64,000 bases of DNA from Dictyoglomus thermophilum H-6-12. GTDB taxonomy: Bacteria > Dictyoglomota > Dictyoglomia > Dictyoglomales > Dictyoglomaceae. A program made the position numbers and the translations under genes. The DNA lies in NCBI RefSeq assembly GCF_000020965.1, contig NC_011297.1, positions 1,460,525 to 1,524,524 on the forward strand, written 5' to 3'. Below the pieces are notes generated by a model that saw only the letters and a list, made by a program, of their open reading frames with translations, did no database searches and was not told where the DNA came from. Of the stretch, positions 27,388 through 45,595 are shown one piece after another (the first letter of the stretch is position 1; every line of letters begins with the position of its first letter).

Positions 27388-27576
27388 ATGCTTGTAAACG
27401 ATAGAGAAATAAAATTTAAAGGCAATCTAAAAGACCTACTTCTTTTTCTAAATTATCCCACAGAGAAAATCGTAGTATTGGTAAACGGAGAGATTGTAAA
27501 AAAGGAAAACTGGGAAAACATGAAGTTAAAAGATGAAGATTATATAGAAATTGTCTCCCTTGTAGGAGGAGGTTAA
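27388..27576 (+). CDS. thiS: ThiS sulfur carrier
   Basis: A 62-residue ubiquitin-like sulfur carrier for thiazole formation. It starts MLVNDREIKFKGN and ends SLVGGG, giving the required C-terminal Gly-Gly for adenylation and thiocarboxylation. SD TTAGGAGG at 27373-27380. First gene under the TPP riboswitch and partner of ThiF and ThiG in the same operon. Confidence 0.95.
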   Translation: MLVNDREIKFKGNLKDLLLFLNYPTEKIVVLVNGEIVKKENWENMKLKDEDYIEIVSLVGGG

Positions 27577-28359: not shown

Positions 28360-29466
28360 ATGTTAGAAATCTTAAAAGAAGCAGATGAAATTTTGAAAAA
28401 TCTTAATAATCTAGAACATAAAGGGGTTAATATAAAGAAAATCTTAGAGAAAGCTAAAATATCAAGGGAAGAACTAATCATTCTTCTCACGGACAATTCT
28501 GACGAAAACCTTATACTCATGGCTAAAAAAGCTAAGCAACTTACTGAGAGATACTTTGGAAAGACTATAACTCTTTTTACTCCTCTTTATCTTTCCAATT
28601 ACTGCTTTTCTCCTTGTGATTATTGTGGTTTCTCAGCTAAAAATAAAATTTTTAGAAAGAAGCTTGATCAACAAGAAATAGTAAAAGAATATGAGGCAAT
28701 CAAAGAAATGAATATTGATAGTATTTTACTTCTTACGGGATGCGATAAAATAAATACACCTTTCGAGTACATACTTGATGCAGTAAAGCTTGCAAAAAAT
28801 TATTTTTCTGAAATTTCCATAGAGGTTTACCCTATGGAAGAAGAGGAATATGAGATATTAGTAAAAGAAGGACTAACAGGAGTAGTACAGTATCAAGAAA
28901 CATACAATCAGGAAACTTATAAAAAACTTCATCCTATAGGTCCAAAAAGTGATTATGAATATAGACTGTATACTCAAGAAAGAGCTCTAAAGGCGGGAGT
29001 TTATGAGGTAACTGTAGGAGTACTATTAGGACTCCATGATCCTGTGGAAGATGTATTTAAAACAATCCTTCACGCAGAGTACCTCTCTAAAAAATATCCT
29101 AAGGCAGAAATTAACATATCCTTCCCAAGATTTAGAGATCCCCAAACAGGCTTCAAACCTAAATATGAGGTAAACGAAAAATCTCTCTTAAGATTTATCC
29201 TCTGTGCAAGAATATATTTACCTCACGTAGGAATAACTATATCCACAAGAGAAAGCAGTATGTTTAGAGATAGTATTATAGGCTATGGCGTTACTAAAAT
29301 GTCTGCAGGATCAAGAACCACTGTAGGAGGATATTCCAAGATTGAAAATACCAACGCTCAGTTTGAGACTGATGATAAAAGAAGTGTAAACGAAATTGTT
29401 AAAGCAATAAAAAATAAAGGATATAGACCAGAATTTACAAATTGGATAAGAGGAGGTCTTTATTAA
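28360..29466 (+). CDS. thiH: 2-iminoacetate synthase
   Basis: A 368-residue radical SAM enzyme that cleaves tyrosine to dehydroglycine, the anaerobic alternative to glycine oxidase ThiO. The cluster motif is CFSPCDYCGF (Cys-x3-Cys-x2-Cys). The C-terminal SAGSRTTVGGYS segment is typical of ThiH/BATS domains. It starts 4 bases after thiG and its stop shares a base with the thiF start. Confidence 0.95.
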   Translation: MLEILKEADEILKNLNNLEHKGVNIKKILEKAKISREELIILLTDNSDENLILMAKKAKQLTERYFGKTITLFTPLYLSNYCFSPCDYCGFSAKNKIFRKKLDQQEIVKEYEAIKEMNIDSILLLTGCDKINTPFEYILDAVKLAKNYFSEISIEVYPMEEEEYEILVKEGLTGVVQYQETYNQETYKKLHPIGPKSDYEYRLYTQERALKAGVYEVTVGVLLGLHDPVEDVFKTILHAEYLSKKYPKAEINISFPRFRDPQTGFKPKYEVNEKSLLRFILCARIYLPHVGITISTRESSMFRDSIIGYGVTKMSAGSRTTVGGYSKIENTNAQFETDDKRSVNEIVKAIKNKGYRPEFTNWIRGGLY

Positions 29467-30071
29467 TGAACTTTTTTGAAGAAATGTTATTAAGCTATTT
29501 TACCAAAGAACAACTTGATAAGATACAAAAAACCCGCATAGTAATAATGGGCTGTGGTGGGCTTGGCTCAAATGGAGCCATCACATTAACCAGAACAGGA
29601 TTTAAAAATTTCATACTCATAGATCATGATAAGGTAGAGATTTCAAACCTAAATCGTCAAGCTTATTTTTTTAATCAAATAGGAATGCCTAAGGCAAAAG
29701 CCTTGAAGGAAAACATATTAAAAATAAACCCTGATTGTTACATTGAAGAGTATGTAGAAAGAATAACCTCTGAAAACATAGAGAGCTTTATGCATAAAGG
29801 AGATATCATCATGGAAGCAGTAGACTCCGCTCAGACAAAAGCCCTCATTTTAAACACTGCTATAAAACTTAATAAAAAAGTAGTTTCTGCCTCAGGAGTG
29901 TGTGGCTATGGAAATTCTGAAAAGATAAAAATAAGAAGAATTAATAATAATGTGTCTATTATTGGAGACTTTGAAAGTGACAACTCGGTTTTTAAACCAT
30001 ATGCCCCTAAAGTAATTGCCATATCAAGTCTTCAGTGTGATGAAATATTGAGGATGGTGCTTTATGAATAA
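29466..30071 (+). CDS. thiF: ThiF-type E1-like adenylyltransferase
   Basis: A 201-residue E1-like enzyme that adenylates the C-terminus of a ubiquitin-like sulfur carrier. It has GCGGLGSNGA for ATP and the DHDKVEISNLNRQAYF segment; the Zn-binding CxxC pairs of full-length ThiF/MoeB are missing, as in the short (family 2) ThiF. I start at ATG 29466 (TAATG overlap), with GGAGG 9 bases upstream. It is the only E1 in this window and might also serve the GGR-tailed carrier at 43029. Confidence 0.9.
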   Translation: MNFFEEMLLSYFTKEQLDKIQKTRIVIMGCGGLGSNGAITLTRTGFKNFILIDHDKVEISNLNRQAYFFNQIGMPKAKALKENILKINPDCYIEEYVERITSENIESFMHKGDIIMEAVDSAQTKALILNTAIKLNKKVVSASGVCGYGNSEKIKIRRINNNVSIIGDFESDNSVFKPYAPKVIAISSLQCDEILRMVLYE

Positions 30072-40823: not shown

Positions 40824-43004
40824 ATGCCTATCATATACGATAGAGATAATAATATTTTTCATTTAATGGCAGGAGACTCTAGCTATATAATAAAAATCTT
40901 TAAAAATAAATATCCTGTACATCTTTACTGGGGCAAAAAATTAAATCACTCCCATTTTTCAGAAGCTTTTATCACCTCTCCTTTTGGACCTAATCCAGAT
41001 CCAAATGACAAATCTTTTACCTTTGACAGGATGCTATTAGAATATCCATCCTATGGGAATTCTGACTTCAGACACCCAGCCTTTCAAATCGAACAAGAAG
41101 ACGGTTCTCGAATAACTCAGCTTGTTTTTAATAATTATAGAATATACAAAGGCAAACCTAAACTTGAGGGATTGCCAGCAACCTATGTAGAGACAGAAGA
41201 TGAAGCAGAAACCCTGGAGTTAGAACTCATTGATGAGCTCATAAACCTCAAAGTAATCTTATTCTATACTGCTTATAACGACTACAATGTGATCACAAGG
41301 AGTGTTAAGTTTATAAATGAAGGTAACCAGAAACTAAAAATTTTGAGAGCCTTAAGTACATGTGTTGATTTTGACCATTGTAATTTTGATCTTCTTCATC
41401 TCTGGGGATCTTGGGCAAGAGAAAGATATGTAGAAAGAGTACCCCTAATGCATGGAATAAAGATTATTGAAAGTTCTCGTGGAGAAAGTTCTCATCAACA
41501 TAATCCCTTTATAGCGCTACTTTCTAAAGATGCAACCGAAAAGAACGGAGACGTGTATGGATTTAGCTTAGTATATAGTGGAAACTTTGCAGCAAACGTA
41601 GAGGTAGATCAATTTAACACTACTAGAGTAACCATGGGTATAAACCCCTTTGAATTTACATGGATCCTTGACAAAGGAGAAACCTTTCAAACTCCAGAGG
41701 TGGTAATGGTCTACTCATCTCAGGGTATAGGAGAAATGTCTAGAACCTATCACAGATTATATAGGAAAAGACTCGTGAGAGGAGTATATAGAGACAAGAG
41801 AAGACCTATCCTTGTAAATACATGGGAGGCGGTCTATTTTAATATAAACGAAGAAAAACTTCTTTCCTTAGCCAAAGAGGCTAAAGAACTTGGGATTGAG
41901 CTTTTCGTACTTGATGACGGATGGTTTGGAAGAAGAGACGATGATACCAGCTCTCTTGGAGATTGGTACGTAGATAGAAGAAAATTACCCAGTGGCCTTG
42001 AAGGATTAGGAAATAAATTAAAAGAAATGGGACTTAAATTTGGCTTATGGTTTGAACCTGAGATGGTCTCACCAGACAGCGAGCTATATTGTAAACATCC
42101 TGATTGGTGTATACAGATTAAAGGAAGAACTCTTTCCCAGTGCAGGAATCAGTATGTGCTTGATATAACAAGAAAAGAAGTAAGAGATGAAATATTGAGA
42201 ATGATGAAAGAAATTATAAAAAGTGCACCTATCGAGTATATTAAGTGGGACATGAATAGACCATTAACTGAGGTGGGCTCTTTAGCTCTTCCCCCTGAAA
42301 GACAAAAAGAGGTATTTCACAGATATGTATTGGCCCTTTATGAAATGATAGAGGAATTAACCACAGAATTTCCATATATTCTTTTTGAAGGATGCTCGGG
42401 AGGGGGAGGAAGATTTGATCCTGGAATCCTCTATTATATGCCTCAGATTTGGACCAGTGACAATACCGATGCTATTGAGAGGCTAAAAATACAATGGGGA
42501 ACAAGCATAGTATATCCTGCTTCCACCATGGGAGCTCATGTTTCTGCAGTACCAAACCATCAGGTAGGAAGAATCACCCCACTAAAAACAAGAGGGTATG
42601 TGGCTATGTCAGGTGTCTTTGGTTATGAGATGGACCTAACAAAATTAACTCCTGAAGAAAAGGAATTAGTGAAAGAGCAGATAGAAATGTATAAAAGAGT
42701 GTGGTATATTGTTTTTGAAGGAGATTTATATCGCCTAATAAATCCTTTCGAAGAAAATTCAGCCTCTTGGATGTTTGTCACACCCGATAAAAGAGAGGCC
42801 TTTGTAATTTATGTAAATATATTAGCGGAGCCCAATCCTCCTTTCAAAAAACTTAAACTTGACGGCTTAGATCCTAATAAAAAATATATAATAGAAGGCA
42901 CAGACAAAGAATATTATGGAGATGAATTGATGAATATTGGCATAAATATACCTCCAATGAGGGATTTTGACTCTTTTGCCTTTATATTAAAGGAAAAATC
43001 CTAA
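40824..43004 (+). CDS. alpha-galactosidase, GH36
   Basis: A 726-residue cytoplasmic alpha-galactosidase (no signal peptide) removing terminal alpha-galactosyl groups from raffinose-type sugars or galactomannan fragments. An N-terminal beta-sandwich (about 1-325) precedes the (beta/alpha)8 barrel: VNTWEAVYFN, LDDGWFGRRDD, LWFEPEMVSPDS. Nucleophile Asp476 in YIKWDMNRP; acid/base Asp546 in SDNTDAIERLK. Length matches the large bacterial GH36 group. SD GAGGTGA. The ubiquitin-like gene follows after 24 bases in the same direction and may be co-transcribed. Confidence 0.95.
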   Translation: MPIIYDRDNNIFHLMAGDSSYIIKIFKNKYPVHLYWGKKLNHSHFSEAFITSPFGPNPDPNDKSFTFDRMLLEYPSYGNSDFRHPAFQIEQEDGSRITQLVFNNYRIYKGKPKLEGLPATYVETEDEAETLELELIDELINLKVILFYTAYNDYNVITRSVKFINEGNQKLKILRALSTCVDFDHCNFDLLHLWGSWARERYVERVPLMHGIKIIESSRGESSHQHNPFIALLSKDATEKNGDVYGFSLVYSGNFAANVEVDQFNTTRVTMGINPFEFTWILDKGETFQTPEVVMVYSSQGIGEMSRTYHRLYRKRLVRGVYRDKRRPILVNTWEAVYFNINEEKLLSLAKEAKELGIELFVLDDGWFGRRDDDTSSLGDWYVDRRKLPSGLEGLGNKLKEMGLKFGLWFEPEMVSPDSELYCKHPDWCIQIKGRTLSQCRNQYVLDITRKEVRDEILRMMKEIIKSAPIEYIKWDMNRPLTEVGSLALPPERQKEVFHRYVLALYEMIEELTTEFPYILFEGCSGGGGRFDPGILYYMPQIWTSDNTDAIERLKIQWGTSIVYPASTMGAHVSAVPNHQVGRITPLKTRGYVAMSGVFGYEMDLTKLTPEEKELVKEQIEMYKRVWYIVFEGDLYRLINPFEENSASWMFVTPDKREAFVIYVNILAEPNPPFKKLKLDGLDPNKKYIIEGTDKEYYGDELMNIGINIPPMRDFDSFAFILKEKS

Positions 43005-43028: not shown

Positions 43029-43226
43029 ATGAGAGTAATATTACGTAGAAATAATGAAGTCAAAGAGATGGAAGGAGATCTTAAAGTAAGCGAAATATTA
43101 AAAATCTTGAATATAAACCCAGAAACAGTCCTTGTGGTAAGAGGAGAGGAAATCTTAACTCCGGACAAAATAGTAAAAAATAACGAAGAGGTAGAAATCA
43201 TACCAGTAATTTCTGGAGGAAGATAA
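43029..43226 (+). CDS. ubiquitin-like sulfur carrier with Gly-Gly-Arg tail (TtuB/ThiS-like)
   Basis: A 65-residue beta-grasp protein (MRVILRRNNEVKEMEGD...), the same fold class as ThiS, MoaD and TtuB. It ends PVISGGR: the di-glycine needed for adenylation is followed by one extra Arg. Carriers with extra residues (for example QbsE) need a JAMM peptidase to expose Gly-Gly, and one is encoded 0.9 kb away. It is joined to the TtuA gene with no gap. The ATG is 15 bases from its GGAGGG SD, which is long; an in-frame ATC at 43020 is 6 bases from it. Probably the sulfur donor for tRNA thiolation. Confidence 0.85.
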   Translation: MRVILRRNNEVKEMEGDLKVSEILKILNINPETVLVVRGEEILTPDKIVKNNEEVEIIPVISGGR

Positions 43227-44183
43227 ATGCGTTGCACAAAATGTCATAATGAAGCAACTATTTACATAAGAAGGCACAATACTGCTTTCTGTAAAGAACA
43301 CTTTATAGAATACATATATGGACAAGTAGAAAAAGCAATAAAGAAATACAAAATGTTTGAAAAAACTGATAAAATTTTAGTTGCAGTCTCAGGAGGAAAA
43401 GATAGCCTTGCTTTATGGGATATCTTAAATTCCCTCGGATATAATTCCGATGGTTTATATATTGATCTTGGAATTTCAGAATACTCTGAGAAATCAAAAG
43501 AGGTTGCACAGAAATTTGCAGAAAGTAGAAACTTAAAACTTCATGTTGTTTCAATTAAAGATATTTATGGCGTAGGAATAAAGGAGATAGCTCATAAAAA
43601 TAGAAAACCTCCATGCTCCACCTGTGGTGTAATAAAGAGATATATCATGAATTTAACAGCAAAAGAACTACAATACAAGGTAATTGCTACAGGCCACAAC
43701 CTTGACGATGAATCTGCAATACTCCTTGGAAATATTCTTCACTGGCAAATAGACTATCTTAAGGCTCAATCTCCAATACTTTTTGAAGATGAAGCTGGAT
43801 TTGCAAGAAAAGTCAAACCTTTATATAGGATTTCCGAATACGAAACTTCTGCCTATTGTATTATGAAAAAGATTGAGTACATACTTGATGAATGCCCTAT
43901 GTCTATCGATGCCCAATCTCTCAGGTATAAGGGAATGTTAAATACCCTTGAAAAAGATTCTCCAGGAACCAAAGAACAATTTTATTTTGGTTTTTTAGAA
44001 AAGGGCAAAAATTACTTTATACCTGAAAAAAGGGAAATAAAACTAAACAGTTGCAAAATTTGTGAACAACCTACCACATCAGAAATATGTGGATTCTGCC
44101 GACAAATAACAAAAGCTAATTTAGAACCTTTAAACATGAAAGAGTTTATACTAAGACTAAAAGATTCTAATGGGCAAGTCTAA
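43227..44183 (+). CDS. ttuA: tRNA-5-methyluridine(54) 2-sulfurtransferase (TtuA family)
   Basis: A 318-residue ATP-pyrophosphatase that thiolates U54 of tRNA, a heat-stabilising change in thermophiles. N-terminal zinc finger (Cys3, Cys6, Cys22, His25), PP-loop VAVSGGKDS at 52-60, Cys130 and Cys133 (KPPCSTC) plus Cys223 as the expected [4Fe-4S] ligands, and a C-terminal zinc finger (CKICEQ...CGFC). These match Thermus TtuA. It uses a ubiquitin-like thiocarboxylate donor, here encoded immediately upstream. Its 3' end overlaps the convergent JAMM gene by 27 bases. Confidence 0.93.
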   Translation: MRCTKCHNEATIYIRRHNTAFCKEHFIEYIYGQVEKAIKKYKMFEKTDKILVAVSGGKDSLALWDILNSLGYNSDGLYIDLGISEYSEKSKEVAQKFAESRNLKLHVVSIKDIYGVGIKEIAHKNRKPPCSTCGVIKRYIMNLTAKELQYKVIATGHNLDDESAILLGNILHWQIDYLKAQSPILFEDEAGFARKVKPLYRISEYETSAYCIMKKIEYILDECPMSIDAQSLRYKGMLNTLEKDSPGTKEQFYFGFLEKGKNYFIPEKREIKLNSCKICEQPTTSEICGFCRQITKANLEPLNMKEFILRLKDSNGQV

Positions 44184-44573
44184 TATATCCTCGTTCTTTT
44201 TAAGATAAGCCTTAAGTTTTATAACAGGATTATTAAATCTCACAGAGAAAATCAAATAACAAATATTAGAGAGCATATCCTCTTTATCCTTATCTGATAG
44301 ATACTCATCTCCATCAGGATGAGAATGATAAACTCCAACAAAATTCTGTCCTACTTTATTCATATATCTAAAAATCTTAATCTCTTCTAAAGGGTCGATC
44401 AAGTATTCTCTATAAGGATTAGGAGCGACATTCTTAGTTATGAAATAACTCTTAATATTGATATTTTTATCTCCCATCTCACCCCCAAGAATCCCACAAG
44501 CCTCAAAAGGATACTCATGGATAGAATGGACAACCAGAATCTTAAAAATATCTTTAGGAAGGAGAATCTCCAT
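44157..44573 (-). CDS. JAMM/MPN+ metallopeptidase (Mov34/PAD-1 family)
   Basis: A 138-residue single-domain zinc peptidase. The full JAMM set is present: Glu24 (FEACGILGG), His83-x-His85 (YHSHPDGDEYLSD), Ser93 and Asp96. Prokaryotic members either trim ubiquitin-like precursors to expose Gly-Gly (QbsD) or release conjugates (Mec+). The neighbouring carrier ending GGR is an obvious substrate. It starts 5 bases after the radical SAM gene with only a weak SD, so translation is likely coupled to it. Confidence 0.9.
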   Translation of the reverse strand: MEILLPKDIFKILVVHSIHEYPFEACGILGGEMGDKNINIKSYFITKNVAPNPYREYLIDPLEEIKIFRYMNKVGQNFVGVYHSHPDGDEYLSDKDKEDMLSNICYLIFSVRFNNPVIKLKAYLKKNEDILDLPIRIF

Positions 44574-44578
44574 TTCTT

Positions 44579-45559
44579 TTATCTTGAAGGAGATAAAACC
44601 TTAGGACAATAAGGATCGGGCTTGCTAATATCATTCTCTAGGATATAAGCTCTTGCGTAGCAACCACCCTTGCAAAACGTTGCTACATTACATCCTAAGC
44701 ACAGTTTATCTCTCTCTTTAAGTAAATTATAAAGCTTATTCTGTTCTACCTCCTTTAACGCCTCTAAAAGAGATTTTGTTCTTATCTCAGAAAGAGGCAT
44801 ATCGATTACATCACAAAGCATAATATCGCCAGTTGGAGCAAGATCTATGTAATCAAGGACATGACACTCATCTATAACAACATAATTAAAATTCATACTC
44901 TTCATGAAAGGAACACACCACAGAACCACAGAATACTTTTCTCTTTCAGCTTCTTCTGAAACCTCTCTAATTGTTCTTATCAAAAGATCAGAACCTATAT
45001 AAATTCTAGTATTTTTTGCCTCACCTGATGGAATCACTGGTATCATACATAGCTCTCTTGCACCAATATTCTTAGCAAACCTTACCATATTACTTGCATC
45101 AAAATAATTTAAAGAAGAAATGGAAAAAATCACAGAAAAAGGAATTTCAAATTTATTTATTAACTCTATACTATTAAGCAGTCTATCAAAATTGTCCTTA
45201 CCTCTCATTTTCTCAAATACATCCTTATTAGAACCATCTATAGAAACGTAGAGATACACCTCATTATCTTTTAAAAACCTTGCTATTTCTTTATTAAGGA
45301 GTAATGCATTAGAATTTAATGAGACTTCAAGACCCAAAGAACGAGCCTTCTCTATATACTCAAACACTTCCTTTACTAAAAGAGGCTCTCCTCCAGTAAA
45401 ATCTATCCCCTTAATAGACAATTCCTTTGCTTCCTCTATTAATCTTAGAGCTCTTTCTTTTGATATTTTTACTTCCCAATTTCTTTTATGAACATAGCAA
45501 TGAGGACAGCTTAAATTACATTTTGTGTCAAGAATCCAAATGATATTGGTAATGAATAT
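44579..45559 (-). CDS. radical SAM / SPASM domain protein with apparent non-AUG start
   Basis: The frame encodes a radical SAM cluster motif CNLSCPHC (Cys14, Cys18, Cys21 if translation starts at 45559), DFTGGEPLL, VYVSIDGS-like strands, and a C-terminal SPASM region with CHVLDYIDL, CLGCNVATFCKGGCY and a last PYC. No ATG, GTG or TTG occurs in frame between an upstream TGA (45572-45574) and the Cys motif; the first conventional start (TTG, 45419-45421) would delete the motif. An ATA at 45557-45559 lies 5 bases from a GGGAGG SD and gives 326 residues. Substrate unknown; the relatives modify peptides or act as enzyme-maturation (SPASM) proteins. Operon with the JAMM gene. Confidence 0.8.
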   Translation of the reverse strand: MFITNIIWILDTKCNLSCPHCYVHKRNWEVKISKERALRLIEEAKELSIKGIDFTGGEPLLVKEVFEYIEKARSLGLEVSLNSNALLLNKEIARFLKDNEVYLYVSIDGSNKDVFEKMRGKDNFDRLLNSIELINKFEIPFSVIFSISSLNYFDASNMVRFAKNIGARELCMIPVIPSGEAKNTRIYIGSDLLIRTIREVSEEAEREKYSVVLWCVPFMKSMNFNYVVIDECHVLDYIDLAPTGDIMLCDVIDMPLSEIRTKSLLEALKEVEQNKLYNLLKERDKLCLGCNVATFCKGGCYARAYILENDISKPDPYCPKVLSPSR

Positions 45560-45595
45560 ATCAACCTCCCTTCACAAAATTTTTACAGCAAGTAT

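Follow-up and report, generated by a model that had tools for sequence, protein, structure and literature searches.

The JAMM peptidase QbsD reportedly cuts its carrier QbsE after Gly, exposing the carrier C-terminus. Exposure of a carrier Gly has also been described for two other JAMM enzymes, DR0402 acting on MoaD-MoaE (PMC8832034) and BilC acting on BilA (PMC11354881). The closest described relative of the locus considered here is the Thermus system, in which a single E1, TtuC, is shared, T. thermophilus TtuA is conjugated to the carrier TtuB at a position matching Lys137 of the Dictyoglomus enzyme, and the JAMM protein has been discussed as acting on TtuB conjugates (PMC3980101).

The window, by which we mean the whole 64,000-nucleotide stretch of Dictyoglomus thermophilum H-6-12 DNA that was analysed, comes from a genome (G000) that is one contig of 1,959,987 bases. 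An earlier note on this DNA described four adjacent genes, the last reaching position 45559, and open reading frames, family models and residues confirm all four. The first, ttuB (43029–43226, forward strand), encodes a 65-residue sulfur carrier precursor that a profile search places in the ThiS family of ubiquitin-fold proteins (E 4.5e-8), and its best match among solved structures is Thermus TtuB (1.1e-9). It lies beside ttuA and has Gly-Gly near its end, as a TtuB should, but it has no free C-terminal Gly: the encoded end is ...PVISGGR, one residue (Arg) past Gly-Gly, and trimming would probably be needed for this TtuB to work as in Thermus. The second, ttuA (43227–44183, forward strand), begins directly after the ttuB TAA stop without a gap. 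Its product matches a TtuA-type model with E 8e-95, versus 1e-36 for the NcsA model, and has the features of the TtuA family, namely a PP-loop, the catalytic Cys pair and third Cys (Cys130, Cys133 and Cys223), and an N-terminal LIM zinc finger and a C-terminal zinc finger with their cysteines present, although its score of 317 bits is below the cut-off of 450 for the NCBIfam TtuA equivalog. By these features it is a TtuA-type tRNA thiolation enzyme (tRNA 2-thiouridine synthase), with U54 as the predicted target. The third gene (44157–44573, reverse strand) is convergent with ttuA, with a 3′ overlap of 27 nt, and encodes a JAMM/Prok-JAB metallopeptidase (Prok-JAB E 1e-14 in a profile search) whose JAMM/MPN+ ligands (E, HxH, S and D), listed in the earlier note as Glu24, His83, His85, Ser93 and Asp96, are all present when checked letter by letter. 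The fourth, on the same strand, encodes a radical SAM/SPASM protein (44579–45559) and ends 5 nt upstream of the JAMM start.

The gene order from TtuA through JAMM to radical SAM, the 3′ overlap and the SGGR tail all recur in a second Dictyoglomus species (G003), with 80–85% identity between the two for the radical SAM protein and TtuA, and this is therefore not a chance set of open reading frames. A Dictyoglomus draft genome (G001) retains TtuA, JAMM and the radical SAM gene, the ttuB end being lost to a contig end. On the same strand as ttuB, and ending such that ttuB starts 24 nt downstream, is a GH36 alpha-galactosidase gene (40824–43004), with which ttuBA may be co-transcribed.

We consider it probable, with moderate confidence, that the locus as a whole is best explained by a trimmed TtuB precursor, a shared ThiF, a tail born of gene overlap and an independent radical SAM gene. 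TtuA and TtuB would form a tRNA-thiolation pair, with the carrier made as a precursor extended by one residue; the JAMM protein would take off the Arg, exposing Gly-Gly, and ThiF, the only E1, would adenylate TtuB. A cysteine desulfurase would then form the thiocarboxylate and TtuA would hand the sulfur to tRNA, as is known for Thermus. The same JAMM protein may also release TtuB from the proteins to which it is conjugated, an activity that the Thermus homologue of JAMM appears to have.

The supply of carriers and activating enzymes in the genome is small. ThiF is encoded within a thiamin operon (29442 or 29466–30071, forward strand), and the suggestion in the earlier note that it is an E1 shared with ThiS is strengthened by a genome-wide search, which shows it to be the sole E1 of the entire genome and not just of the part in view. 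The only ubiquitin-fold carriers found in the genome are TtuB and ThiS (27388–27576, forward strand), and ThiF probably activates both. One genome of the sister genus (G004) retains a lone ThiF with no ThiS detected, so that ThiF there probably serves TtuB. Wherever ThiS was found in the Dictyoglomota it ends in LVGGG, whether or not the genome has JAMM; as a candidate JAMM substrate its GGG end is weakened, since two JAMM-less genomes of the sister genus (G005 and G006) keep it. With ThiS and TtuB as the only carriers found, TtuB is therefore the likely JAMM client.

The prediction that the JAMM protein cleaves after the carrier Gly-Gly comes solely from the covariation of tail and JAMM, which is seen both in the phylum and in wider samples and lends support to the earlier proposal that JAMM trims the SGGR carrier. 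Within the Dictyoglomota, SGGR occurs with JAMM in two species (G000 and G003), and in the sister genus (G004, G005 and G006) TtuB ends in plain SGG and a genome search found no JAMM. In a tree, ttuA of the genus Dictyoglomus groups with those of Clostridia 41_269 and G407, and sister-genus ttuA is placed elsewhere; on this placement the two ttuBA pairs are xenologous and not vertical orthologues, and the contrast within the phylum thus counts as one event. For a first wider sample, 84,980 species were scanned and the best 80 TtuA loci kept. Among these, ttuB adjoins ttuA in 64, and of the 64 carriers 24 end exactly in GG, 39 have 1–15 extra residues (most commonly two) and one reads through into TtuA (L148). 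JAMM, called at E<1e-10 with weaker RadC-like matches left out, is present in 35 of 40 tailed or fused genomes versus 14 of 24 untailed ones (Fisher p 0.013), and the five tailed exceptions are MAGs without a detected JAMM. The second sample, of 386 genomes across 326 genera, yielded TtuA in 48; with the Dictyoglomota and the RadC fusions set aside, JAMM is present in 6/6 tailed versus 5/16 untailed genomes (p 0.012), carriers with KG, RG or TG ends being counted as untailed. A test on the two samples stratified by group gives p 0.003, though genomes may be common to both. The association is carried by groups where only some genomes have JAMM, such as the Chloroflexota (5/5 versus 3/9, p 0.03), and there is no association of tail and JAMM within the Nitrospirota. 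Overall, many TtuB proteins extend past Gly-Gly, and most of those that do come from JAMM-bearing genomes. Among carriers linked to TtuA, those at five loci in JAMM-less genomes (L225, L236, L228, L280 and L288) end in KG, RG or TG.

There is a confounder: at JAMM loci in the wider samples, JAMM genes are mostly beside MoeB/E1 or CysK genes. JAMM may be kept in such genomes for other carriers, with TtuB tails merely permitted, which fits a tail that depends on JAMM but not a JAMM kept on account of TtuB. Only in Dictyoglomus was JAMM seen beside ttuA, and the JAMM profile matched none of the 80 best ttuA loci. Two weak motif-scan matches at these loci were not counted as JAMM.

The tail itself appears to have its origin in the junction with ttuA. 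Of the 39 tailed ttuB genes, 24 have a stop codon that overlaps the start of ttuA as ATGA, versus 0 of 24 untailed ones (p 3e-7), and the commonest overlapping form, GGNGG followed by 6 nt and ATGA, sets the Gly-Gly codons at the distance of a ribosome binding site. The junction in the window reads GGAGGA-AGA-TAA-ATG, in which the Gly-Gly codons GGA-GGA (43215–43220, forward strand) would double as a Shine-Dalgarno GGAGG lying 7 nt upstream of the ATG of ttuA and the Arg codon (43221–43223) lies within the spacer. The sister-genus junction, GGAGGA-TAA-NNN-ATG, keeps a similar spacing with the extra codon after the stop, not before it. These arrangements suggest that the Gly-Gly codons are used as the ttuA ribosome binding site; GGAGG is not significantly enriched at short ttuB-ttuA spacing (17/31 versus 11/32, p 0.13). 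As the ATGA overlap is confined to tailed ttuB genes in this sample, the tail seems to be a side effect of the coupling between ttuB and ttuA, put up with since JAMM can trim it. With the Gly-Gly codons held at ribosome-binding distance, the ttuB stop probably drifted toward or into the ttuA start, adding an extra codon that would be tolerated only in a cell with JAMM. At L148, in an open reading frame from about 9704, TtuB and TtuA share one frame (SGG-SNPG-M), which may be either a real fusion or an indel or sequencing error in the MAG.

The rival that survives best is that the JAMM protein is a deconjugase only, of the desampylase type, acting on TtuB-TtuA and other conjugates, with the Arg either harmless or trimmed by another protease. 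The closest curated model is indeed that of the haloarchaeal desampylase HvJAMM1 (NF041370, E 3.6e-19; 69 bits, under its cut-off of 130), TtuA Lys137, which aligns with the TtuB conjugation site of T. thermophilus TtuA, is conserved, and many genomes with plain GG ends retain JAMM. In Thermus, moreover, TtuB is activated at its C-terminal Gly and loss of JAMM alters TtuB conjugates (PMC3980101). However, deconjugation by itself leaves unexplained both the rarity of tails without JAMM and why TtuB of the JAMM-less sister genus ends in SGG, and we regard it as unlikely. In a related reading, the tail could be tolerated untrimmed or be removed by a carboxypeptidase. It is improbable that JAMM is instead left over from a CysO/MoaD-type carrier system since lost, with the tail being neutral. 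Such a history would fit the relatives elsewhere that flank E1 or CysK genes, and broken ThiS-like and E1 fragments that adjoin a threonine synthase-like gene in the second Dictyoglomus species (G003:C1:497675-498324); these fragments are remains of another carrier/E1 pair, and JAMM in that species may formerly have served another client. Yet the JAMM ligands are intact in three species, though no other carrier was found in D. thermophilum, and the genes beside ttuA have kept their order.

The radical SAM gene requires separate comment. Its product has the CX3CX2C motif (Cys14, Cys18 and Cys21) and the full set of SPASM cysteines (232, 249, 287, 290, 296, 300 and 318) that define a radical SAM/SPASM protein, and its score is under the cut-off of every one of the 25 best-listed curated subfamilies. 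The open frame extends to 45559 with no ATG, GTG or TTG upstream of CX3CX2C, and ORF callers therefore start the gene at TTG 45421, dropping the first 46 residues. At 45557–45570 on the reverse strand, GGGAGG is followed 4–5 nt on by AUA, an arrangement kept in four species (the window, L003, L004 and L005) with AUA in three and AUC in one, which suggests a conserved non-AUG start. A frameshift rescuing an ATG was rejected, the other frames being closed.

As to its associations, the earlier expectation that the radical SAM gene would stand beside JAMM and TtuA in relatives holds inside the genus and fails outside it, and on this distribution its pairing with JAMM is particular to the genus. 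An orthologue in the sister genus (G004, 55%) follows galT-galK, and relatives in G132 and G407 (35–36%) are near sugar genes. Cooperation of the radical SAM/SPASM and JAMM proteins on the carrier or the TtuA pathway, the role offered in the earlier note, would suit their operon (0–5 nt spacing in three Dictyoglomus genomes) but is the least probable of the explanations, as the gene occurs without JAMM in G004, without TtuA (at 1e-40) or JAMM at the thresholds used in G132, not at all in the TtuA genomes G005 and G006, and has no homologue at the 80 best TtuA loci or at 80 JAMM loci. We therefore reject a pathway partner on co-occurrence; the enzyme is probably merely a genomic neighbor outside the TtuA pathway, and its gene would be older and of independent origin, having joined JAMM in one operon within the genus. 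The settings in which the gene is found (GH36 and amylase; galT-galK; GH42, FGGY kinase and AXE1) are suggestive, but they are few and were read after the fact, and we do not claim it as a carbohydrate-operon gene.

The function of RadC, which has a JAB domain, is unsettled. Two genomes of one family (G374 and G236) encode, directly upstream of ttuA, a single protein that joins a TtuB domain with an entire RadC (UPF0758_N plus RadC JAB; L274:1961-3421, reverse strand, and L284:471-1508, forward strand), and RadC retains the HNHPSG...SxxD motif. The fusions are an independent link of TtuB with a JAB domain. Proteolytic maturation might even be general in bacterial TtuA-type thiolation, with tails born of overlap and Gly-Gly exposed either by a separate JAMM protein in trans or, in cis, by a fused RadC JAB domain; this is possible though doubtful, and if true RadC would gain a testable peptidase role. 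TtuA/TtuB pairs turn up commonly in Nitrospira, Acidimicrobiia and Chloroflexota MAGs, many of which, to judge from their titles, seem to come from soil, groundwater or the like, and the pathway is probably not solely a heat adaptation. If the trimmed-precursor explanation is right, it would add a protease step to the bacterial tRNA-thiolation pathway, explain odd TtuB tails as the product of gene overlap, make precursor trimming, activation and deconjugation open to study together in a small set of carrier, JAMM, ThiF and TtuA, and remove the radical SAM gene from the suspects.

Among known systems, the locus most resembles TtuA/TtuB/TtuC and JAMM of Thermus thermophilus, with a TtuA-type enzyme, a TtuB-type carrier, a single genomic E1 and a JAMM homologue. 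It differs in the one-residue tail of TtuB, which in Thermus ends in Gly, and in the JAMM gene being convergent with ttuA. HvJAMM1 provides the closest curated model, although the score is under that model's cut-off. The predicted cut after Gly is like those in DR0402/MoaD-MoaE, BilC/BilA and QbsD/QbsE, whereas the clients and pathways differ and none of those clients is TtuB. JAMM maturation of ubiquitin-like carriers is thus of a known kind, and TtuB is its predicted new client.
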